Origin: Aquabacterium humicola
GTDB lineage: Bacteria > Pseudomonadota > Gammaproteobacteria > Burkholderiales > Burkholderiaceae_C
DNA: 64,000 bases
Direction: 5' to 3'
NCBI RefSeq assembly: GCF_030167915.1
Contig: NZ_JARGNB010000007.1
Coordinates: 248,001 to 312,000, forward strand
A program made the position numbers and the translations under genes. The notes under the pieces were generated by a model. The model worked only from the letters and a program-made list of their open reading frames with translations, had not been told where the DNA came from and searched no databases. How positions within the stretch are numbered: the stretch's first letter is position 1; each line of letters begins with the position of its first letter. Below, piece by piece: positions 10,291 through 35,105 of this stretch.

Positions 10291-10327
10291 GCCTCCAGGC
10301 TGCACTGAAGCGAGGGGCTTGCGCACC

Positions 10328-13300
10328 ATGCCGAACGACATCTACCTCTCGTCGACCCTCGAGGACCTGCGCGTGGAACGCGAGGCCGTGCGCGACATGC
10401 TCGCTCGCAACGGATACGGCGTGAAAGACAGCTACCAGGCGAGCGACCAGGCCCTGCTTGCCAGTTGCTTCGAGGACGTCGCGTCCTGCGCGTTGTACGT
10501 GTGCATCGTCGGCATGCGCTACGGCCACCGGCCGGAAAGCGCCATTGCCAATCCGGAGGGCAAGTCGATCACGCAGCTCGAGTTGGAGCACGCCCGACGC
10601 CTTGGCCTGCCGTGCCTGGTCTTCCTGAAGTCAGAGCAGGCGGCCTACACGCGCGGCCAGCACGACGAGCTGTGCAAGGAGAACGAGCATGGCCTGCGCA
10701 TCAAGACGTTTCGCGATTGGCTGCAGACAAAGTCCGGCTTGCGGCCGGCACAGTTCGAGACGATCCATGAACTGCAGGAAAAAGTGCTGGCAGCGCTCCC
10801 GCAGGCACTCGCGAAGGTGGCGTCGCAGCGCGCTTCCACCCGGGAATCACGTGCGGCAGAGGCCGTGGTGCGCGTGCCGTTCATGGTCGACGATCTCCCG
10901 CCCGACTTCGTGCCGCGGCCGGCGGAGTACGCGCAGTTGGTGTCGCACCTGCTCGACCGCGAGCGCAAGGAGCCGCTGGCCATCACGACCGCGCTGCGTG
11001 GTGCCGGAGGCTTCGGCAAGACCGTGCTGGCGCGCGCGCTGTGCCACAACCAGGACATTCGGACGGCCTTCAAAGGCGGCATCATGTGGGTCACGCTGGG
11101 CGAAAACCCTGGTTCGCTGATCGGTCGCATCCAGGATCTGATCTACATGCTGAGCGACCGGCGGCCCAGCTTCGACGGCATCGAAGGCGCGAGCACCGCG
11201 CTGGCCGAAGCACTGGGCGAACGCGACATTCTCATGGTGATCGATGACGCCTGGGACGTGGCGCACGTGCAGCCGTTCCTGCGCGGTGGGCCGCGCTGCG
11301 CGCGGGTGATCACGACGCGCCGTGACGACGTGCCACCGCAGAACGCGAGACGTACCGATGTCGACGCCATGTCGAGCAGTGAGTCGCTGGCGCTGCTGAG
11401 CCACGGCTTGCCTGAAGGCGCGGTACGGGCCGGCGGCGAGACGCTGGCCGCGTTGACGCGTCGCCTCGGGGAGTGGCCGCTGCTGCTGAAGCTGGTCAAC
11501 AGCGCGCTGCGCGACCGTGTCGTGCAGCGGGGCCAGGCACTGGGCGATGCTCTCGCCTATGTGAACAGCGCGCTCGACGAGATGGGGCTGACCTTCTTCG
11601 ACGCCAGCGACGTTGGCGCGCGCAACACGGCGGTAGCGACGACGCTGGACGTCAGCCTAGCCCAGCTCGGCGAGGCCGACCGGGCCCGCTTGCATGAGCT
11701 GGCGGTCTTTCCAGAGGACGTCGCCATCCCGATCGACGTGATCGCCGCGCTGTGGGCGCACAGCGCAGGACTCAAGGGCATCGCCAGCGAGCGCTTGTGC
11801 CAGCGACTCGCGCAGCTGTCATTGTTGCAGGCGTTGGACCTCGGCACGCGCACCGTGCGGCTGCACGACGTCGTGCGCCAGTTCCTGCTCGGCCGGGTTG
11901 GCGGCGGCGTGCCGGCACTTCATGCGCTGCTGCTGGACAGCGCACGGCCGACGGACGGCGCCTGGGCGGCACTGGCACCTGCTAAGGGCTACTGGTGGGA
12001 CTGGCTCTTCGTCCACCTGCGTGCAGCCGGTCGGAGCGACGAGTTGGTGGCGACAGCGCTAGATCTGCGCTACCTGACGGTGAAGGGGCTGCTGTGCACG
12101 CCGGCAGCGGTGGAAGCCGACCTCGGCATCGCACTTGCCGTGGAGCCCGAGCACGGCAGACTGCTTGCATTGCGCCGAAGCTACACGCAAGCCGCGCACC
12201 TGCTGTCGCGCTGTCGCGGGCGGGACGAAGCGCAGGCAACGCTCGCCGCGCGACTCCGGTTCGTCGATGCGCTCGCGCCGCTGGCCAGTGCGCTGCATGC
12301 AGGAAGCGCCACGCCCCGCCTGACGCCAGTCACGGTGCCGCCGGACCTGCCGCACCCGGCGCTGATCCGCACGCTGGGCGAGCACCACGGCACGATGAAC
12401 GTCTGCGCGCTGAGCGCCGACGGCCGCCGCATGGCCACGGCGGGCCGCGACCGCACGATCCGCCTGTGGAACACCGGCAGCGGCGTCGAGCTGCTGTCCT
12501 TGCCGGGCCATGCGGTGCGGGCGCTGCGGCTCAGCGAGGACGGCAGCCTGCTCGCGGCCGCCACCGAAGAACGGCGGCTGATCGTCTGGGACACCCGCAC
12601 CGGCGAAGAGCGCCTGCGCTGCGCCGGTCATGTCGACGTGCTGACCGGCTGCGCGCTGAACACCGCCCACCGCCGCGTGCTGAGCTCGTCGCTCGACGGC
12701 ACGATCCGGCTCTGGGACCTGGACAGCGGCGCGCTGCTGAAGACGCTGGGCCGCACCTCGGCCGAGAACGAGCGCGCATTGATGGTGCCGGCCAACGATG
12801 CCGGCCACAGGGGCCCGGTGCTCGGCTGCGACATCAGCTCTGACGGCACGCTACTGGCCTCGGCCTCGAGTGACCAGACGGTGATCCTGTGGGATGTGCG
12901 CACCGGCGAGGCATTGCGGGTCTACCGCAGCCACGAGGCCGCGGTGAATGCCTGTGCGTTCAGCCCCGACGGCCGCTTCCTGGCTGCTGCGAGCGCCGAT
13001 CAGACGGTGTGCATCTGGTCCGCCACCGACACCACGGTTCGCCTGCTCGCCGGGCATGACGATGCCGTGAAGGACCTGGCGTGGTCCGACGACGGCGCGA
13101 CGCTGCTGAGCGCGTCGGCCGACGGCACGCTGCGCATGTGGGACGTGGCAACGAAGCGCCTGCTGCGCAGTTACACCGGCCACACCGACTGGGTCGTCAG
13201 CTGCGGCCTGTCGTCGCGCGCCGGGTTGATCGCGTCGGCGTCGATCGACGGCACCGTGCGCCTGTGGGAGCGGGATGCGCCCGGCAGCGAGCGGGTCCGC

Positions 13301-14245
13301 CGCTCGCGCAGCGAGCAGTGGGTGCAGGCCTGCGCCGCGCAGCCCGCGCATGGCCTGCTCGCCACCACCGCGGCCGACCGTGGCCTGCTGCTCTGGAATC
13401 CGGCGCGGTGCCATCGCACCATGTCGCTGCGCGGCCACGAGGCAGCCGTGCGTGCTTGTGCGATCAGCGCCGACGGTCGCTTGGCGGCATCGGCCTCAGC
13501 CGACAAGTCGGTGATCGTCTGGGACGTGGTGACAGGGCGCCTGCTGCACAAGCTGAGCGGCCATCGCGACTGGGTCAACGCCTGCAGCATCGACGCCACC
13601 GGCACGCTGATCGCCTCGGCATCGAACGACCGTACGCTGCGGCTGTGGGACCTGGCGTCGCGCGCGCGCAAGCTGGCTTTCGTCGCCCATGCGCACTGGG
13701 TCACCGCCTGCGTTATCAGCCCAGACCGGCGCTGGCTCTATTCGGCCGCCGCCGACGGCACGCTGCGGCGCTGGCCGCTGGCCGACATCGACGAGGCGCT
13801 GTGGGAAGACTGGCTGTCGGGCCGCCGCGAGCTGGCGGCGGACGCGGCGGTCGCGGCGCTGCGGCCGCTCGAGCTCGGCGGCCATGCGCAGTCGCTGAAC
13901 GCGCTGGCGCTCAGTACCGACGGCCGGGTGCTGGCCAGTGCGTCCAGTGACCGGACGCTGGGGCTGTGGGATGCGCAGACCGGCGAGGGTCTGCGGCTGC
14001 TCGAAGGCCACCTGCTCGACGTCAACGGGTGCGCCTTCAGCCCGGACGGACGGCAGCTCGCGTCGGTGTCGTCCGACGGCTGCATCAAGGTCTGGCGCGT
14101 TGTCGACGGACAGTGCCTGATGTCGCTGCGCGTCGACAGCGAGCTCACGGACGTGCGCTTTGTCGATGCCGACGGCGCACGACTGGTCACCGTTGGCGCG
14201 ATGGGGGTGTACTTCCTCGGTTGCGGCGACGGCGCCCCCGCGTGA
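10328..14245 (+). CDS. STAND NTPase: DUF4062 - NB-ARC - 14 WD40 repeats
   Basis: This 1305-residue three-part protein is built like an NLR-type signalling ATPase. Residues 1 to about 165 form a DUF4062 domain (IYLSSTLEDLRVEREAVRD ... VCIVGMRYGHRP). An NB-ARC module follows, with P-loop GAGGFGKT near residue 229, Walker B LMVIDDAWD near 302 and the TTRRDD sensor near 328, then winged-helix and helical linker segments. From about residue 678 I count 14 WD40 units (for example GHEAAVRACAISADG ... SVIVWD), enough for two seven-bladed propellers. WD40 arrays in such proteins sense a ligand, the NB-ARC oligomerises and the N-terminal domain acts as effector. I chose ATG 10328, after GAGGGG; a TTG at 10319 is possible. 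The first 2 kb looks less strongly GC-biased by eye than the repeats. A defence role is inferred. Confidence 0.88.
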   Translation: MPNDIYLSSTLEDLRVEREAVRDMLARNGYGVKDSYQASDQALLASCFEDVASCALYVCIVGMRYGHRPESAIANPEGKSITQLELEHARRLGLPCLVFLKSEQAAYTRGQHDELCKENEHGLRIKTFRDWLQTKSGLRPAQFETIHELQEKVLAALPQALAKVASQRASTRESRAAEAVVRVPFMVDDLPPDFVPRPAEYAQLVSHLLDRERKEPLAITTALRGAGGFGKTVLARALCHNQDIRTAFKGGIMWVTLGENPGSLIGRIQDLIYMLSDRRPSFDGIEGASTALAEALGERDILMVIDDAWDVAHVQPFLRGGPRCARVITTRRDDVPPQNARRTDVDAMSSSESLALLSHGLPEGAVRAGGETLAALTRRLGEWPLLLKLVNSALRDRVVQRGQALGDALAYVNSALDEMGLTFFDASDVGARNTAVATTLDVSLAQLGEADRARLHELAVFPEDVAIPIDVIAALWAHSAGLKGIASERLCQRLAQLSLLQALDLGTRTVRLHDVVRQFLLGRVGGGVPALHALLLDSARPTDGAWAALAPAKGYWWDWLFVHLRAAGRSDELVATALDLRYLTVKGLLCTPAAVEADLGIALAVEPEHGRLLALRRSYTQAAHLLSRCRGRDEAQATLAARLRFVDALAPLASALHAGSATPRLTPVTVPPDLPHPALIRTLGEHHGTMNVCALSADGRRMATAGRDRTIRLWNTGSGVELLSLPGHAVRALRLSEDGSLLAAATEERRLIVWDTRTGEERLRCAGHVDVLTGCALNTAHRRVLSSSLDGTIRLWDLDSGALLKTLGRTSAENERALMVPANDAGHRGPVLGCDISSDGTLLASASSDQTVILWDVRTGEALRVYRSHEAAVNACAFSPDGRFLAAASADQTVCIWSATDTTVRLLAGHDDAVKDLAWSDDGATLLSASADGTLRMWDVATKRLLRSYTGHTDWVVSCGLSSRAGLIASASIDGTVRLWERDAPGSERVRRSRSEQWVQACAAQPAHGLLATTAADRGLLLWNPARCHRTMSLRGHEAAVRACAISADGRLAASASADKSVIVWDVVTGRLLHKLSGHRDWVNACSIDATGTLIASASNDRTLRLWDLASRARKLAFVAHAHWVTACVISPDRRWLYSAAADGTLRRWPLADIDEALWEDWLSGRRELAADAAVAALRPLELGGHAQSLNALALSTDGRVLASASSDRTLGLWDAQTGEGLRLLEGHLLDVNGCAFSPDGRQLASVSSDGCIKVWRVVDGQCLMSLRVDSELTDVRFVDADGARLVTVGAMGVYFLGCGDGAPA

Positions 14246-26223: not shown

Positions 26224-27426
26224 ATGACTACCGCCCGGTCCACCGGCCTGGACACGCTGCGCGCGCTCGCGATCGCGCTGGTGTTCATGTACCACTACAT
26301 GGTCTTCGTATCGGGCGCGCCGACCTTCGGCTGGCTGAGCACCGTCGGCTGGGTCGGCGTCGACCTGTTCTTCGTGCTCAGCGGCTACCTGATCGGCCAC
26401 CAGCTCTTCGCCGGGCTGGCCGCCGGCCGGCGGCTGTCGTTGAAGGCCTTCTACGCGCGGCGCGCGCTGCGCACCTGGCCGGCGTTCTGGGTCGTGCTGG
26501 CGGCCTATTTCCTGTGGCCGGGCGAGCTCGGCGGGCGCACGCCGCCGCCGCTGTGGCGCTTCCTGAGCTTCACGCAGAACTTCGGCCTGCCGCCGGGCAC
26601 CGCGTTCTCGCATGCCTGGTCGCTGTGCATCGAGGAGCAGTTCTACCTCGTGCTGCCGCTGGCGGCGCTGGCCTTCGTCGCGGCCGGCCGCAGGCCGCGC
26701 ACCGCGTGGATCGGCTTCGCCGTGCTGCTGGCCGTCGGCATCGCCGCGCGCTCGCTGCTGTGGGTCGAACATGGCCGCGAGCTCGCCGGCGGCGGCCACG
26801 GCACCGCCGGCTACCACCCGAACATCTACTACGCAACGCTGTGCCGCTTCGACGAGTTCCTGCCCGGTCTGGCGATCGCGCTGCTGCGCAACTTCCACCC
26901 GGCGGCGTGGGCGCGGCTGATGGCGCATGGCCGCGCGCTGTTCTGGGGTGGCCTCGCCACCGTCGCGCTGGTCTTCGTCGCCATCGTGCGCTGGTACTAC
27001 GTCGACGGCTACGGCTATACCTTCGTGATGACCGCGGTCGGCTACTCGGCGGTGGCGTGGGCCTTCGCGCTGCTGGTGGCGTCGGGCCTGAGCCCGGTCT
27101 CGCCGCTGCAGCGCTGGCGCATCCCCGGGGCGCCGCAGCTGGCGCTGTGGTCGTACTCGATCTACCTGACGCACAAGGCCGTCGCGCACGTGCTGCACCA
27201 GCTCGGCAAGCAGCACGGCTGGTCGCCCGGCCTCGAGCTGGCGGCGATCACGGTGGCCTCGCTCGCCGCCGGCGCGCTGCTGTACCGCCTGGTCGAGCGG
27301 CCGTTCATGGATCTGCGCGACCGCTGGTGCCCTTCGCTGTTCCGGGCGCCCGCGGCGCCCGGCGCGCCGATGCCCGCACCGCTGCACCTTTCTCGACCGG
27401 CTTCGCGGCCGGACCGATCGGCTTGA
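26224..27426 (+). CDS. Membrane acyltransferase, family 3 (OafA/YrhL type)
   Basis: This 400-residue integral membrane protein has about ten hydrophobic segments. Acyltransferase-3 signatures are present: LDTLRALAIALVFMYHY at the start with the conserved Arg and His, VGVDLFFVLSGYLIG, FYARRALRTWPAFW, and AWSLCIEEQFYLVLP with the conserved Glu. Such enzymes O-acetylate cell-surface glycans or other envelope molecules. The target is unknown. The last 122 bases overlap, on the opposite strand, the 3' end of the LysR/NhaR gene. The C-terminal tail after VERPFMDLRDRW is therefore shared coding DNA in two directions. Confidence 0.9.
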   Translation: MTTARSTGLDTLRALAIALVFMYHYMVFVSGAPTFGWLSTVGWVGVDLFFVLSGYLIGHQLFAGLAAGRRLSLKAFYARRALRTWPAFWVVLAAYFLWPGELGGRTPPPLWRFLSFTQNFGLPPGTAFSHAWSLCIEEQFYLVLPLAALAFVAAGRRPRTAWIGFAVLLAVGIAARSLLWVEHGRELAGGGHGTAGYHPNIYYATLCRFDEFLPGLAIALLRNFHPAAWARLMAHGRALFWGGLATVALVFVAIVRWYYVDGYGYTFVMTAVGYSAVAWAFALLVASGLSPVSPLQRWRIPGAPQLALWSYSIYLTHKAVAHVLHQLGKQHGWSPGLELAAITVASLAAGALLYRLVERPFMDLRDRWCPSLFRAPAAPGAPMPAPLHLSRPASRPDRSA

Positions 27427-29243: not shown

Positions 29244-30488
29244 TCACGGGAAGCTGAAGTTGTTGCTGGCCGTCGCACCGGCGGCCAGCGTCAGCGGACC
29301 GGCCGACTTGCTCAGGCTGCCCGAGGTCGCGACCACCGTGTAGCGCCCGGCCGCCGCCGCATCCGCGGTGAAGGCCAGCGGCGCCGCCCCGGGGGCGTAC
29401 GCGGCCACCCGCGGCGCGGCGGTCGGCACGCTGAACGCATAGGCCCCGGTGGCGCCGTGCACCGGCGCCGCGGCCCATTCGATCGTCGTGCCGTTGGACA
29501 AGGGCTGCGTGACGCGCACCAGCGCGTCGATCGGCGTGCTGCCGGTGCTCACGGTGCCGACCAGCTGCGCAGCGGCCGAAGGCGCCGCGGTCAGCGGCAG
29601 CGCGGTGCTGCCGAGCGTGGTCAGCGTGCTGCCGCCGACCACCACGCCGGTCACCACCTGCGTCGTGCGGCCCGGAGCCGCCAGCACCAGCGTGTAGGTG
29701 CCCGGCGCCACCGGCGACAACACGTACTTGCCGGTGGCGTCCGGCAAGGTGCTCTTGATCACCGTGCCGCCCTGCTGAAGCGACACGGTCGTCGACGGGC
29801 CGACCAGCGTGGGCTCGACATGACCCTGCAGGCCGCTGCTGAACAGCGCGGTCGCCGACAGCACCGGCTTGAGCAGGTAGTTGCCGGAGTTGCCGGCACG
29901 CACCACCGACCTGCAGGCGTCGAAATCGATCACCACGTCGGCGCTCTGGTTCGCGGCCACGTCGATGCCGATGTCGAGCTTCAGGCCGCTCTGCTGCGCG
30001 CTGGGGGTCTTCAGCTCGACCTCGGCCTCGCCGCTGGGCTTCACCGCGTTGGCCAGCGGCGCCGCGCTGCTGTTGGCCGCCAGCACGAGGCGCAGCTGCT
30101 GGTAGCGGCCGGGCGGCAGCGTGGTTTCGCCCAGCTCGGCCAGCACGCCGTTGCGCAGCGTCAGCAGGTCGAGGCGACGTGCGGGCGACAGCACGATCTC
30201 GCTCCAGCCGGTTGCGCTGCCGTCGGCGGTGGCGCTCTGGTGCACGCGCACGCGCTCGACCGTGACGTGCACGCTGTCGTAGCCGCAGGCCGGCGCATCG
30301 GTCAGGAAGGCGCGCAGCGTGCCCTGGCCGGCGCCGAAGGGCGGCGGCGGGTTGTTGCCGCCGTCGCCGCCACCGCCACCGCAGCCGGCGAGCGTGAAGC
30401 CGGCCATCAACGCGGCCATGAGCGGGGCCATGAGCGCGGTCATCTTCCCGCCGCGGCGCGCCGCCTGGATCCCAACGAGTCGGTTCAT
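29244..30488 (-). CDS. DUF4382 domain lipoprotein
   Basis: This 414-residue protein has a lipoprotein signal ending LAGC, followed by a Gly/Asp/Asn linker (GGGGGDGGNN). A DUF4382 domain follows (GTLRAFLTDAPACGYDSVHV ... about residues 55-200), and then a carboxypeptidase-regulatory-like segment and Ig-like repeats (GKYVLSPVAPGTYTLVLAAP). DUF4382 proteins are usually surface or periplasmic lipoproteins of unknown function. I chose ATG 30488 because AAAGGA lies seven bases before it and the signal peptide follows directly. It is on the same strand as the CsgG-like operon, 130 bases downstream of it, and could be the last gene of that transcription unit. Confidence 0.82.
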   Translation of the reverse strand: MNRLVGIQAARRGGKMTALMAPLMAALMAGFTLAGCGGGGGDGGNNPPPPFGAGQGTLRAFLTDAPACGYDSVHVTVERVRVHQSATADGSATGWSEIVLSPARRLDLLTLRNGVLAELGETTLPPGRYQQLRLVLAANSSAAPLANAVKPSGEAEVELKTPSAQQSGLKLDIGIDVAANQSADVVIDFDACRSVVRAGNSGNYLLKPVLSATALFSSGLQGHVEPTLVGPSTTVSLQQGGTVIKSTLPDATGKYVLSPVAPGTYTLVLAAPGRTTQVVTGVVVGGSTLTTLGSTALPLTAAPSAAAQLVGTVSTGSTPIDALVRVTQPLSNGTTIEWAAAPVHGATGAYAFSVPTAAPRVAAYAPGAAPLAFTADAAAAGRYTVVATSGSLSKSAGPLTLAAGATASNNFSFP

Positions 30489-30618: not shown

Positions 30619-32271
30619 TCAGCGGACGGTCACGGGCGCGCCCGGCAACGCCAGCATCGTGATCACGGCCGGCGCCTTCGTCAGCGCCTCGAAGATGCGC
30701 TGCAACTCGCCGAAGCTGCGGATCGCGTTCAGCGCCTGGAAGTCGCCCCAGCGCAAGGCGGCGGGTGCGTCGACGTAGACCTCGCGCGGCGCCGCGACGC
30801 AGCCCAGCGCACGCAGCGCCTGCGGCGGCAGGCGAAAGCCCTGCGCGCCCGGCAGCTGCAGCGGCTTCGACGGCTGCACCAGCGGATCGGGCGCAAAGCG
30901 GTTCGGGAAGATGCGCTGCATCGTGCCGGCGCTGTCCTGTGCATAACAGTAGACGTACGCGGCCTCGGTGGGCTTGATGCGGAACGACAGCGAGCCGTCG
31001 GGCAGCGCGGGCAGCGGCTCGAGCGCGACGGCCAGCGGGCGGGCGCGGGTCGACGCGGCCAGCGGCAGCGCAGCGGCGACCGGGGCGATCGCGGCGGTGG
31101 CCGGCTGCGCCATGGCGGACTGCAGGCCGCCGCTGCCGGGCAGGGTGGCCGTCGGGGTGGCGACGGGGAGGGCCGCGGGGGTCGCCGAGACAGCGGCAGG
31201 ACGGGCCGGCTCCGGCCCCCCGTCGCGGAACGGCTGCTCCGGCGCCACCGGGGCCGGTGCCTCGATGAAGCGGGTGAAGAGCGCGAGGTCCACCACCGGC
31301 TCGTGTCCCAGCCCGAGCGCGCCGCGGTAGGCGGCCACGGCCCGGCGCAGCGCCGGGCTGATGCGGCCGTCGACCGGACCGTCGTAGAAGCCGCGGTTGC
31401 GCAACTGCAGCTGGAAGTACGGCGTCAGCTCACCGCCGCGGTCCATGCCGATGAACCAGTCCTCGATCTCGTCGCGGATCTCGGGCAGCCGGGCGTCGAG
31501 CCCCAGGCAGCGCCAGTACGGCAGCTTCAGCAGCTTGCCGAACAGCTCCACCGCCGACAGCTCGACCATGTTGCGCAGCGCCTGCGCGGTGCCGTCGGTG
31601 CGCTGGAACGAGCTGCTGAAGTTGATGCCGAGCTTGCTGATCGTCGCCTGCGCATCGAGCGCATCGCCTTCCTTGATCACCGTCGTGACGTTCTTCGACA
31701 CCACGCCCGGCACGAGCGCCAGCGTGCGCGTCTCGACCAGCGCGACGTCCAGCCCCAGCACGTTGAGCTGCCGGCTGCGCGAGGCGCCGGCCCCGAGCAC
31801 CGTGCCCGCCGACACGCCGGCATCGGCCTGGCGCCGCAGCACGCCTTCGTCGAGCTGGGTGATCGACCCCCGCAGGTCGTACTGCGGCACCACCGCGAAC
31901 GGCTGGCGCTGCTGCGCGCTGTTGAGGAAGGCGACGACGTTGTTCGCGTCCGGCCCGAAGGCCACCACCTGCAACGCGCGGCTGCGCCGCGTCATGTCCG
32001 AGATCGCCGACATCATCATGTCGCGGGTGCCGGCGTTGACCTTCTTCGTCGTGTCGGTCAGGTCCTCCAACATCACGCTGACGTCGCGCGTGCCGTAGGC
32101 GAGGTAGAGGTTGTCCATGCAGCGCAGCGCGTCGCCGAAGCCGGTGACGTTGCGCTGCGGCAGCGCGGGCGCCGCGGGCTTCAGCGCCGCGGCCTGGTCC
32201 TGCGCGCGCGGCGGCAAGGTGGACGAGCAGCCGGCGACGGCCAGCGCGGCGAGCAGGGCGAGGGACTTCAT
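30619..32271 (-). CDS. CsgG/HfaB-like outer-membrane lipoprotein with peptidoglycan-binding and DUF4384 domains
   Basis: This 550-residue lipoprotein carries the signal MKSLALLAALAVAGC. A CsgG-type domain occupies roughly residues 40-270, recognisable from YDLRGSITQLDEG, VLGLDVALVETRTLALVPG and the following V-x-K-x-V stretch. In curli secretion CsgG forms the nonameric pore in the outer membrane. A peptidoglycan-binding-like segment follows (FQLQLRNRGFYDGPVDGRIS, about 285-320), then a Pro/Ala linker and a DUF4384-like domain (SFRIKPTEAAYVYCYAQ). This fusion is longer than CsgG (about 277 residues). GGAG lies 11 bases before the ATG. It is 31 bases downstream of the small secreted protein gene, the third gene of an operon led by the repeat protein. 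Confidence 0.82.
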   Translation of the reverse strand: MKSLALLAALAVAGCSSTLPPRAQDQAAALKPAAPALPQRNVTGFGDALRCMDNLYLAYGTRDVSVMLEDLTDTTKKVNAGTRDMMMSAISDMTRRSRALQVVAFGPDANNVVAFLNSAQQRQPFAVVPQYDLRGSITQLDEGVLRRQADAGVSAGTVLGAGASRSRQLNVLGLDVALVETRTLALVPGVVSKNVTTVIKEGDALDAQATISKLGINFSSSFQRTDGTAQALRNMVELSAVELFGKLLKLPYWRCLGLDARLPEIRDEIEDWFIGMDRGGELTPYFQLQLRNRGFYDGPVDGRISPALRRAVAAYRGALGLGHEPVVDLALFTRFIEAPAPVAPEQPFRDGGPEPARPAAVSATPAALPVATPTATLPGSGGLQSAMAQPATAAIAPVAAALPLAASTRARPLAVALEPLPALPDGSLSFRIKPTEAAYVYCYAQDSAGTMQRIFPNRFAPDPLVQPSKPLQLPGAQGFRLPPQALRALGCVAAPREVYVDAPAALRWGDFQALNAIRSFGELQRIFEALTKAPAVITMLALPGAPVTVR

Positions 32272-32302
32272 GGCAACGCTCCGGTACGGATAACCGTCAA
32301 AA

Positions 32303-32635
32303 TCAGCGGCAGTTGTTGCCGGCCTGGATGATGTCGCCGGTGACGATCACGGTCGTCTCGCGGCGCGGGCTGCCGATGCGCGGCTTGTCCTCGAAGACGT
32401 TGCCGATCGCGATCGTGCAGCCGTTGCCGAAGGCCTGCGTGCTCGCGCCGCCGGCGCCGCGGCCGAAGGCCACCGCGCTGGCCGGCTGGCCGGCGCGCTG
32501 GCGCGCGGCGGTCTCGGCGGCGACCTGGCTCTTGCCGCGGGCGAGGCGGGCGTTGATGTCGTCGCCGATCTCGGGCGTGCCGGCCAGCGCGGCGGTGCCG
32601 CCGAGGACGAGCAGGGCGATCAGGGGCAGTCGCAT
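32303..32635 (-). CDS. Short secreted protein of the CsgG-like operon
   Basis: This 110-residue protein has a signal peptide (MRLPLIALLVLGGTAALAG). The mature part is Ala/Gly-rich, then has a conserved-looking end: GNGCTIAIGNVFE ... ETTVIVTGDIIQAGNNC, with two cysteines that could form a disulphide. The IAIGNV strand resembles the QxxxIGSV strands of the repeat protein upstream. It could therefore be a partner or nucleator, as CsgB and HfaA are for their fibres. That is an inference from size, export and position; I do not recognise the family. It lies 13 bases after the repeat protein and 31 bases before the CsgG-like gene. Confidence 0.7.
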   Translation of the reverse strand: MRLPLIALLVLGGTAALAGTPEIGDDINARLARGKSQVAAETAARQRAGQPASAVAFGRGAGGASTQAFGNGCTIAIGNVFEDKPRIGSPRRETTVIVTGDIIQAGNNCR

Positions 32636-32648
32636 GGCCGCCTCCGCC

Positions 32649-34094
32649 TCAGTCCGCGACCACGTCGTTCGGCCCGCTGCCGCTGACCGCGCCGACCAGG
32701 ATGGTCTGCGTCTGCGCCGACGGGTTGCTGAACTGCGACAGCGTGCCGTTGACCGTGACGTCGGTGCGCACGTTCGCGCCGGTGTCCTGCACGCTGCCCA
32801 GGCGCATCACCTGGCGTGCGTTGGCGCTGTTGGCGTTCTGGCTGATCGCGCCGCCGACCACCACACGCGTCTGCACGCTGCCGGTGGTGCCGCGCACGCT
32901 GCCGATGGCCAGGTTCTGCGACGCGCCGTTGGCGCCGGCGGTCAGCGTCTGCGTGATCGCCGCGCTGACGACGGCATCGGTGATGGCCCGGCCGCTGGCC
33001 AGCTCGATGCTGCCGATCGAGATCAGCTGCGACGCGCTGCCCGGCGCGCTCGCCGTCTGGCTGATTGCGCCGGTGGCCACGCCGCGGGCCTGTGCATCCT
33101 GCGGCGAACCGCCGCCGACCGAACCGATGCTCAGGATCTGCGAGGTGCGTCCGGTGGCCGACTGCGACAGCGCCCCCAGGGCCTGCCCGGTGGCCGAGAC
33201 CTGGCCGGCGGCATCGACGTTCTCGACCGCGCCGATGCGCACGATCTGCTGCGTGGCCTCGGTCTGGCTCTGCGACAGCGTGGCGGCGAGCAGGCCGTCG
33301 GTGCGCACGGCGTTGGCTTGCGAGCCCTGCGCCGAGCCGACGTCCAGGCGCTGTTCGCCGCCGCCGCTGCTGCCGCCGGACGCGGTGCTCGATTGCGTGA
33401 CCACGCCGCTGACCGTGCCTTGCAGCACCGCGTTGCCGATGGTCGCGCCCTCGGCGCTGCCGATGCGCACGGCTTGCGCGGTGCCGCCGCGCTGCGTCTG
33501 GGTCAGCGCGGCGGTGAGCGTGCCGGTGGCGTCGAGGTTGCCGCCGCTGAATTCCCGGCTGGCACCGACGTCGACCCGTTGCGAGCCGCTGGTGTTCGGC
33601 CCGAACTCGTCGCTGCGCTGCGTGACATTGGCCTGCACGGTGCCGGTCAGCGTCGCGCTGCCGCGCACCGTCAGCGAGCCGTCGACGGCGCCGATGGCGA
33701 TCGACTGTTCGACGTTGGCATCGCTGCGCCGCGTCTGCGACAGGTTGCCCGCCAGCGTGCCCTGCGTCGTGATGCTGCCGCCGACTTGCGTCGGCTGGTT
33801 GATACCCCCGACCGAGGCCGTCTGGCGGCTGCCGAGGAAGCCGGTCGACAGGTTCGATTGCGTGACGTTGCCGTTGACCGTGCCGCGCACCGTCAGGCTG
33901 GCGCCGGCCGGCTCGACCGCGCGCAAAGAGCCGTCGCCGATCTGGCGCAGGTTGTTGCCGGCGCCGCGTTCCGGCAGCAGCACCGTGTTCGACGTGCCGT
34001 CGGCGACGCTGCCGGGCGCGCGCTGGGCATGCACCGCGGACGCGCCGAGCAGCAGCAGCGAGGCGAGGGCGACAGGGGTGGACTTGAACAACAT
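32649..34094 (-). CDS. Secreted protein with about 11 amyloid-like repeats
   Basis: This 481-residue protein has a signal peptide (MLFKSTPVALASLLLLGA, cut after AVHAQ) and about eleven repeats of 35-43 residues filling the rest. The repeat consensus, read by eye, is G-x-h-x-(G/A)-x-h-(S/T)-Q, then a variable turn, then Q-x-h-x-h-G-(S/A)-h. Alternating Gln and Ser/Thr strands joined by Gly/Asn turns resemble curlin and other functional amyloid subunits. No cysteine or membrane segment follows the signal. AGGAG lies about seven bases before ATG 34094; an in-frame longer start at 34121 would precede the signal. It is followed by a small secreted protein and a CsgG-like pore, and is the likely exported fibre or surface adhesin. 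Confidence 0.78.
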   Translation of the reverse strand: MLFKSTPVALASLLLLGASAVHAQRAPGSVADGTSNTVLLPERGAGNNLRQIGDGSLRAVEPAGASLTVRGTVNGNVTQSNLSTGFLGSRQTASVGGINQPTQVGGSITTQGTLAGNLSQTRRSDANVEQSIAIGAVDGSLTVRGSATLTGTVQANVTQRSDEFGPNTSGSQRVDVGASREFSGGNLDATGTLTAALTQTQRGGTAQAVRIGSAEGATIGNAVLQGTVSGVVTQSSTASGGSSGGGEQRLDVGSAQGSQANAVRTDGLLAATLSQSQTEATQQIVRIGAVENVDAAGQVSATGQALGALSQSATGRTSQILSIGSVGGGSPQDAQARGVATGAISQTASAPGSASQLISIGSIELASGRAITDAVVSAAITQTLTAGANGASQNLAIGSVRGTTGSVQTRVVVGGAISQNANSANARQVMRLGSVQDTGANVRTDVTVNGTLSQFSNPSAQTQTILVGAVSGSGPNDVVAD

Positions 34095-34196
34095 CGTGCG
34101 CTCCTGGGGCCGGCCGGACATCGACCGTGTGAGCGCACCTACGGCATCGCGGGCGGTGGCGGACGCCGCGGCGCCGCCTGCCTCCAGCGCACTAGT

Positions 34197-35105
34197 TCAC
34201 GCCGAACGCACCCACCAGTCGCCCTGCAGCGCGTCCTGCAGGAAGCCGATGAAGCTGGTCACCTTCGACGGCACCAGCTTCGGCGACGGGAACACCGCAT
34301 GCACCTCCTGCGCCGGCAGCCCGTGGTCGGGCAGGACCGGGCGCACGCTGCCGTCGGCGACCGATTCGCGCGCGACGTACCAGGGCAGGATCGCGAGGCC
34401 GAAGCCGGCGCGCGCGGCGGCCAGCACCGCCGACAGGTTGTTCGAGCGCAGCGGGCCCTTCACCGGCACTGAACGCTCGTCGCCCGAAGGCAGCGTGAGG
34501 CTCCAGCGGTCGTCGCCCTGCACGCTGCTGTAGACGAGGCAGGCATGCTGCGCCAGGTCGTCGAGCGAGGCGGGCGTGCCGCGCTGCTCGAGGTAGGCCG
34601 GCGCCGCGACCATCAGCCACGGGTTGCTGCCGAGGTAGCGCGCGCCCAGTGTCGAGTCGGCCAGCCGCCCCATGCGCACGGCCAGGTCGATGCCCTGCTC
34701 GACGAGGTTGACATAGCGGTCGTCGAAGCTCAGGTCGACCACCACCTCGGGATGTGCGCGCATGTAGCGCAGCACCAGCGGCACCAGCACGCGGCGGCCG
34801 AAGGCCACCGACGTGCTGACGCGCAAGGTACCGCCGACCTTCGCCTGCAGCAGGGTGGCGAGGTTGTCGGCCTCGTCGAGCTCGCGCGCGATCAGCTTGC
34901 ACTTGTCGTAGTACAGCGCGCCGACCTCGGTGGTCGTGACGCCGCGCGTCGAGCGGTGCAGCAGGCGGGCGCCCAGACGTTGCTCCATCGACGCCACCGC
35001 CTTGGTGGCGGTCGGCTGCGTGATGCCGAGCTCGGCAGCGGCCTTGCTGAAGCTTTGTGTCTCGACGACGCGGATGAAGAGCTGCACGCCGGTGATGCGG
35101 TCCAT
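34197..35105 (-). CDS. LysR family transcriptional regulator
   Basis: This 302-residue LysR protein has an N-terminal winged helix (residues 1-62, SFSKAAAELGITQPTATKAVASME) and a LysR-substrate-binding domain (VGGTLRVSTSVAFGRRVLVPL). Length and order are normal for the large CrgA/PecT-like group. It lies 102 bases upstream of the repeat-protein operon on the same strand, but its own start faces the small genes at 35 kb. Whether it controls the secreted-protein operon is not shown. The effector is unknown. Confidence 0.9.
   Translation of the reverse strand: MDRITGVQLFIRVVETQSFSKAAAELGITQPTATKAVASMEQRLGARLLHRSTRGVTTTEVGALYYDKCKLIARELDEADNLATLLQAKVGGTLRVSTSVAFGRRVLVPLVLRYMRAHPEVVVDLSFDDRYVNLVEQGIDLAVRMGRLADSTLGARYLGSNPWLMVAAPAYLEQRGTPASLDDLAQHACLVYSSVQGDDRWSLTLPSGDERSVPVKGPLRSNNLSAVLAAARAGFGLAILPWYVARESVADGSVRPVLPDHGLPAQEVHAVFPSPKLVPSKVTSFIGFLQDALQGDWWVRSA

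Follow-up and report, generated by a model that had tools for sequence, protein, structure and literature searches.

A three-gene cassette of Aquabacterium humicola encoding a CsgG/HfaB-superfamily lipoprotein, a small two-cysteine protein and a repeat protein: a candidate surface export system

Gene layout of the locus

The subject of this study is a row of three genes on the minus strand of a 64,000-nucleotide stretch of the Aquabacterium humicola genome (contig NZ_JARGNB010000007.1, positions 248,001 to 312,000). The whole stretch is called the window here, and its own numbering is used. The genes encode a repeat protein, a small secreted protein and a lipoprotein, and together they apparently represent a widespread variant of CsgG/HfaB-type surface export that is undescribed in the searched literature.

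34094..32649, minus strand: repeat protein gene, 481 amino acids, Sec-type signal peptide, 11 repeats, presumed exported subunit
32635..32303, minus strand: small secreted protein gene, 110 amino acids, cysteines C73 and C109, cassette signature
32271..30619, minus strand: CsgG/HfaB-superfamily lipoprotein gene, 550 amino acids, lipobox ending at C15

The original prediction, made from the letters of the window and its open reading frames, had described this trio with intergenic gaps of 13 and 31 bases, and the coordinates bear it out. The repeat protein start has AGGAG ahead of the ATG at 34094, with an alternative in-frame ATG at 34121; a GGAG-like sequence precedes all three cassette starts, and the G+C content of third codon positions is 0.94-0.98 across the three genes. 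Gene starts and neighbouring genes were assigned with an in-house open reading frame caller and a signal-peptide rule, not with a trained predictor.

The channel lipoprotein

Three regions were recognized in the lipoprotein: a CsgG-like region (residues ~40-258), a peptidoglycan-binding-like region (~287-321) and DUF4384 (~427-481). Fusion of the pore gene to the last two domains had been proposed before; DUF4384 was recovered above its cut-off (E 7e-12), while PG_binding_1 fell just below it (E 2.7e-4, 21.5 bits against 23). The proposal of a CsgG-type pore had a divided outcome as well. The Pfam CsgG family (PF03783) does not match the window lipoprotein, and of the 15 sequences in alignment A1, the window included, it picks up 4 weakly (best E 0.0018). 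PF03783 alone misses this channel family; the relation to CsgG rests on profiles and fold. The predicted fold of the lipoprotein matches CsgG best, and CsgG chains rank above PelC and TolB in the list that re-aligns the top 1000 Foldseek matches. The single-chain model predicts a protomer with the CsgG fold, and its long strand pairs (131-149/165-180 and 185-201/207-222) lie by alignment at the sites of the CsgG hairpins. Two other proteins in the genome match PF03783 over the cut-off; they are different proteins, and no curli genes were recognized near them.

The NCBIfam HfaB model (NF037935) gives the window lipoprotein 24.2 bits, far below its equivalog cut-off of 300, and weakly matches 10 of the 15 A1 members (best 5e-7). 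When the channel family was aligned by hhalign with 12 sequences drawn in by the HfaB profile, the result was 98.6% with a score of 124 over 244 columns, against at most 22 in 20 shuffles; six of those 12 exceed the HfaB cut-off, and L145 (48.6 bits), rather a CsgG, was kept in. By eye, L145 has CsgF-like and curlin-like neighbours and looks like a true curli locus. Two cysteine columns are common to the channel family and the HfaB set (9 and 11 of the 12 rows). On these comparisons the lipoprotein belongs to the CsgG/HfaB superfamily, with similarity beyond shuffled controls, and its closer channel relative is HfaB, not CsgG.

Of 90 confirmed homologous loci the best 80 were kept, and 64 channels were aligned after 17 of the 80 loci had been left out (near-copies, truncated sequences and a frame error in L113). 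C51 and C255 are invariant in all 64. The segment corresponding to the constriction loop has 11 residues in every member compared with 23 in Escherichia coli CsgG; judged from this alignment, the loop, which we take to be Y66/N70/F71 of the CsgG precursor, is absent from the family. In curli the constriction loop is the site engaged by CsgF.

The small two-cysteine protein

The small protein is the signature of the cassette. It carries the motif C-x-x-I-x-I-G-N ... G-D-V-I-x-x-N-x-C, with exactly two cysteines after residue 25 in all 61 seed sequences, both invariant in the 33-row alignment. In 62 of 80 loci its gene begins the row no more than 500 nucleotides ahead of the channel gene, and two further loci (L076, L127) have it on the divergent strand; because the 61 sequences of the model were chosen by their cysteine pattern beside a channel, the count of 62 is partly circular. 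More weight can be given to a profile scan across 250 genomes of the order, even though certain matches in it (the window, L066, L107) are rows of its own alignment. Seven genomes matched, each once, and six of the matches adjoin a channel gene; in G187 the small protein lies 1.3 kb from the channel gene with one gene between. The channel query found 14 of 250 genomes in what is apparently the same sample, and seven of these, which include divergent and Cys-partner forms, are beyond the reach of the small-protein profile.

No Pfam family matched the window small protein, and four single weak matches occurred among the 33 members (E 0.05-0.07); a PDB search gave nothing below E 0.79. Profile alignment to the repeat proteins scored 24.9 over 30 columns (probability 9%; shuffles at most 11.7), a weak likeness. 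Against CsgF or CsgB the score stayed within the shuffled range, and against CsgE it reached 14.8 (shuffles at most 10.4) over 13 columns only, with a probability of 1.3%. The comparison with five HfaA rows was marginal (15.8 over 15 columns, probability 1.4%; 20 shuffles up to 13.1). In these comparisons with CsgA, CsgB, CsgE and CsgF, for which the csgA piece was the first 118 amino acids only, homology was sought by profile alignment and not found.

The repeat protein

The pattern Q-x-h-x-h-[GA]-[SAGVEN] occurs 12 times, as 11 repeats spaced 35-42 residues apart plus one extra match 9 residues after the first. The mean in 10,000 shuffles was 0.75 and the maximum 6, so the 11 repeats of the original prediction stand. 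Its expectation of a beta-solenoid also agrees with structure prediction: residues 66-470 are predicted to be all-beta with about three to four strands per repeat, the best fold match of the model is CsgA, and the protein is probably a beta-solenoid. CsgA repeats have 23 +/- 5 residues according to passages of a published study (PMC10192328), shorter than the 35-42 found here. The window repeat protein matches no enzyme family in Pfam scans, and the repeats are fast evolving, as estimated from dN/dS (nonsynonymous to synonymous substitution rates) for one genome pair by a simple method.

Repeat proteins elsewhere in the family were found with a composition filter, which gave 60 sequences at 52 of the 80 loci, including at least two doubtful members (L064, L098). 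After 12 of the 60 were dropped as near-copies, short or doubtful, 48 and the window protein formed a set of 49. The minimal curli motif QxGxxN is enriched in 16 of these 49, whereas PF07012 (curlin repeat) matches none at E <= 0.1. Against HfaA the repeat proteins do not align beyond shuffled controls, and against six HfaD rows (one of them, L138, with an uncertain start) they score 10.3 with shuffles up to 15.0. A score of 31.9 against HfaD with signal peptides kept was an alignment of signal peptides only.

Distribution and partner genes

Most of the 80 loci belong to Beta- and Gammaproteobacteria; Alphaproteobacteria and Magnetococcales contribute some, and single bins carry the labels Myxococcota and Geobacteraceae. 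These last two holders are known from metagenome bins only. The Myxococcaceae locus (L096) may be misbinned, since it is near-identical to a betaproteobacterial bin. Within the genus, the channel is present in 3 of 21 genomes. The holders include named strains: Rhodoferax sp. TH121, Azoarcus sp. L1K30, Variovorax ginsengisoli CGMCC 1.12090, Noviherbaspirillum autotrophicum TSA66 and Aquabacterium terrae S2.

Further partners were counted anywhere in each stretch, up to ~8 kb away, uncorrected for truncated contigs; L060, L062 and L114 have nearly no upstream DNA. Where the small protein lies upstream (62 loci), the channel is followed in 44 cases by a small 'RCWQ' protein, 42 of them within 80 nucleotides; an OmpA-domain protein occurs in 38 and an extracytoplasmic function (ECF) sigma gene in 21. 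The corresponding numbers for the remaining 18 loci are 2, 2 and 10. None of these three companions was seen in the window operon. On another contig of the same genome (C23; L156 7832-8473) an OmpA protein has the N-terminal segment typical of the family and no adjoining channel gene; ~2 kb away is a gene that, by eye, resembles TssM of type VI secretion.

In the tree of 64 channels, the sister clade to that of the window has a Cys-rich protein of ~240-270 amino acids as partner (9 rows, one change, 100/100 support). No small protein was found in this clade, and the repeat filter gave only doubtful matches there. In a clade of the channel family (L089, L091, L092, L098, L106, L110 and L115-L118), a Cys-rich secreted protein of 240-270 amino acids precedes the channel in place of the small protein, and ECF sigma and anti-sigma genes often come after. 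A channel paralogue with a much shortened first hairpin segment was seen at G000:C42:25461-26531 (L039 7417-8883) and at L054 7395-8951; by eye, this paralogue adjoins a lytic transglycosylase gene and genes resembling those of type III secretion or flagellar export, as in A. terrae (G269). In two genomes of the same family (L043 3980-7624, L044 8633-12490), repeat proteins of 1214 and ~1285 amino acids with recurring G-N-x-A-like motifs precede a distant channel homologue. Several relatives have genes in the neighbourhood of the cassette that look caspase-like by eye, at L031 6581-8212, L053 10037-10897 and 12335-13690, and L076 3440-5632.

Neighbouring genes

Two genes flank the cassette in the window:

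29244..30488, minus strand: DUF4382 lipoprotein gene, downstream of the cassette, membership unsure
34197..35105, minus strand: LysR-type regulator gene, upstream of the cassette, probably not dedicated

In the nearest named relative, A. terrae S2 (now Pseudaquabacterium terrae), the gene order from LysR to DUF4382 is identical, so that LysR adjoins the cassette there too. The LysR gene is also carried by four genomes of the genus that have no channel, and for this reason the regulator is probably not dedicated to the cassette. The DUF4382 gene, searched with a query without its first Met, is present in 2 of 21 genus genomes, both of them cassette holders with channels 84% alike; whether it is part of the system is unsure. 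An empty site was considered in G259, where LysR is followed by a permease gene that lies ~12 kb further on in the window. This arrangement is compatible with a variable region and is no proof of insertion. Elsewhere in the window, 10319-14245 encodes a 1308-amino-acid protein whose start looks DUF4062-type-like by eye.

Discussion

We lean towards the reading that the trio is a cassette exporting a beta-solenoid fibre or adhesin to the surface and constitutes a third branch next to Csg and Hfa. In the simplest account, the repeat protein leaves through the channel, the small protein assists the channel or initiates the coil, and the ring is kept in position by the wall-binding-like domains; operon order, the pairing of genes, the CsgG fold and curli-like motifs among the relatives speak for it. 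The fibre-export interpretation of the original prediction is partly supported: the channel does fall in the CsgG/HfaB superfamily, though nearer to HfaB than to CsgG, while the suggested likeness to the holdfast-anchor proteins is weak at best, with nothing for HfaD, nothing between the repeat protein and HfaA, and a marginal score between the small protein and HfaA.

Export, ring formation and polymerization are inferred by analogy with CsgG and HfaB, and the sequence of events might be as follows. All three proteins would cross the inner membrane by Sec, to judge from signals recognized by rule of thumb. The lipoprotein would be lipidated at C15 and adopt a CsgG-like fold with a putative internal C51-C255 disulfide; as in CsgG, it may form a ring that sends two beta-hairpins per subunit through the outer membrane, and its C-terminal peptidoglycan-binding-like and DUF4384 domains could tether this ring to the wall from the periplasm. 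With the CsgG constriction loop missing, gating or capping of the channel in place of CsgF and CsgE is proposed to fall to the small disulfide protein or to some other part, which may also template the first coil. The repeat protein, predicted to be all-beta, would exit unfolded and coil outside into a solenoid, with about three to four strands from each repeat, which could then polymerize or stand as an adhesin. A bolder and doubtful version is that a third widespread CsgG-type branch, with a channel lacking the curli gate loop and having its own wall anchor, uses the disulfide-locked small protein as a single free-standing fibre coil, which plugs the channel and nucleates the thicker solenoid fibre with its three to four strands per repeat; the single-coil idea draws on the weak profile likeness between the small protein and the repeats.

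Other explanations must be weighed against export of a fibre or adhesin. The channel might place a non-polymerizing adhesin or anchor that holds polysaccharide (slime, sheath or holdfast), in the way that HfaB acts for HfaA and HfaD; these two need HfaB to reach the outer membrane according to passages of a published report (PMC6707917). The closeness of the channel to HfaB and the two common cysteine columns are consistent with this, as is the slight excess of the small protein over shuffles when compared with HfaA (20.2 against 12.1 over 8 columns in an uncleaned set). By eye, both of these proteins have an A-I-G-N stretch followed by T-V-I-V, and an acyltransferase-3-like gene lies ~3 kb from the cassette (window 26224-27426). 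However, the HfaB model gives a small fraction of its cut-off score, the repeat proteins, stripped of their signal peptides, resemble HfaD no more than shuffled sequences do, and no polysaccharide synthesis or export gene was recognized by eye around the cassette, where no systematic search was made. We regard such an anchor as unlikely.

It is more improbable still that the locus does not export at all, the lipoprotein being a periplasmic cell-wall or stress protein with a CsgG/TolB/PelC-type core, co-regulated with a beta-helical envelope protein or enzyme. The modelled strand pairs at the CsgG hairpin sites and the rank of CsgG chains above PelC and TolB argue against it, and so do the fast evolution of the repeats and the lack of an enzyme-family match. 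A remote true curli system, in which CsgE, CsgF and curlin genes have diverged past profile recognition, would agree with the QxGxxN enrichment seen in 16 of the 49 repeat proteins and with CsgA as the best fold match. This seems very improbable, given the lack of any PF07012 match, the comparisons of the small protein with CsgF, CsgB and CsgE, the missing loop that CsgF contacts, and repeats that are longer, with three to four strands, than those of CsgA.

If the three genes do form a third branch of surface export, some of the amyloid-like fibres on Betaproteobacteria that lack assigned genes could be their product. The cassette offers candidate genes for the gap between reported amyloid-like fibres and characterized systems, and its presence in named strains makes deletion and microscopy tests feasible. 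It also poses a mechanistic question, namely how a CsgG-type channel can operate when the constriction loop, CsgE and CsgF are all missing, and a CsgG relative without the gate loop may interest nanopore work. Passages of one report describe amyloid-like fibres from most environmental biofilms and very few characterized gene systems (PMC3792158). In passages of a 2012 curli survey, two curli systems in Betaproteobacteria are given, and CsgG matches outside curli are taken as a sign of a larger family (PMC3521004). Among the matches listed in a search of open-licence full texts, which left most subscription journals and all preprints outside, there was no description of the cassette; DUF4384 is mentioned in five such texts, but no open-licence full text was found with CsgG and DUF4384 together, or combining four of CsgG, HfaB, Burkholderiales, amyloid and peptidoglycan-binding.

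Comparison with known systems

The Fap system of Pseudomonas resembles the cassette in having a Q/N-rich repeat subunit from a small operon, but has the FapF barrel in place of a CsgG-type ring; Fap families did not turn up in general Pfam scans, with no search aimed at Fap by name. PelC, TolB, TraT and other lipoproteins or periplasmic proteins have the core fold in common with the channel. Curli (CsgG, CsgA/B, CsgE, CsgF) share with the cassette the CsgG fold of the channel, a repeat subunit predicted to be solenoid-like and, in some of its repeat proteins, the QxGxxN motif. Unlike curli, the cassette lacks CsgE, CsgF and a curlin-repeat match, as the original prediction had held for the first two: profiles for CsgF, CsgE and the curlin repeat (PF10614, PF10627 and PF07012, respectively) gave no match at E <= 1 anywhere in the 7.39 Mb genome. 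It also has no constriction loop, longer repeats and a built-in wall-binding-like domain.

The Hfa holdfast anchor of Caulobacterales (HfaB, HfaA, HfaD) has a channel of the same superfamily, the two shared cysteine columns and co-encoded secreted proteins. The cassette differs from it in the absence of an HfaD homologue, the marginal likeness to HfaA, another gene order, a shorter gate segment and the added peptidoglycan-binding-like and DUF4384 domains of its channel, and it occurs mostly in other bacteria. The suggestion of a distinct system, already made in the original prediction, is supported.
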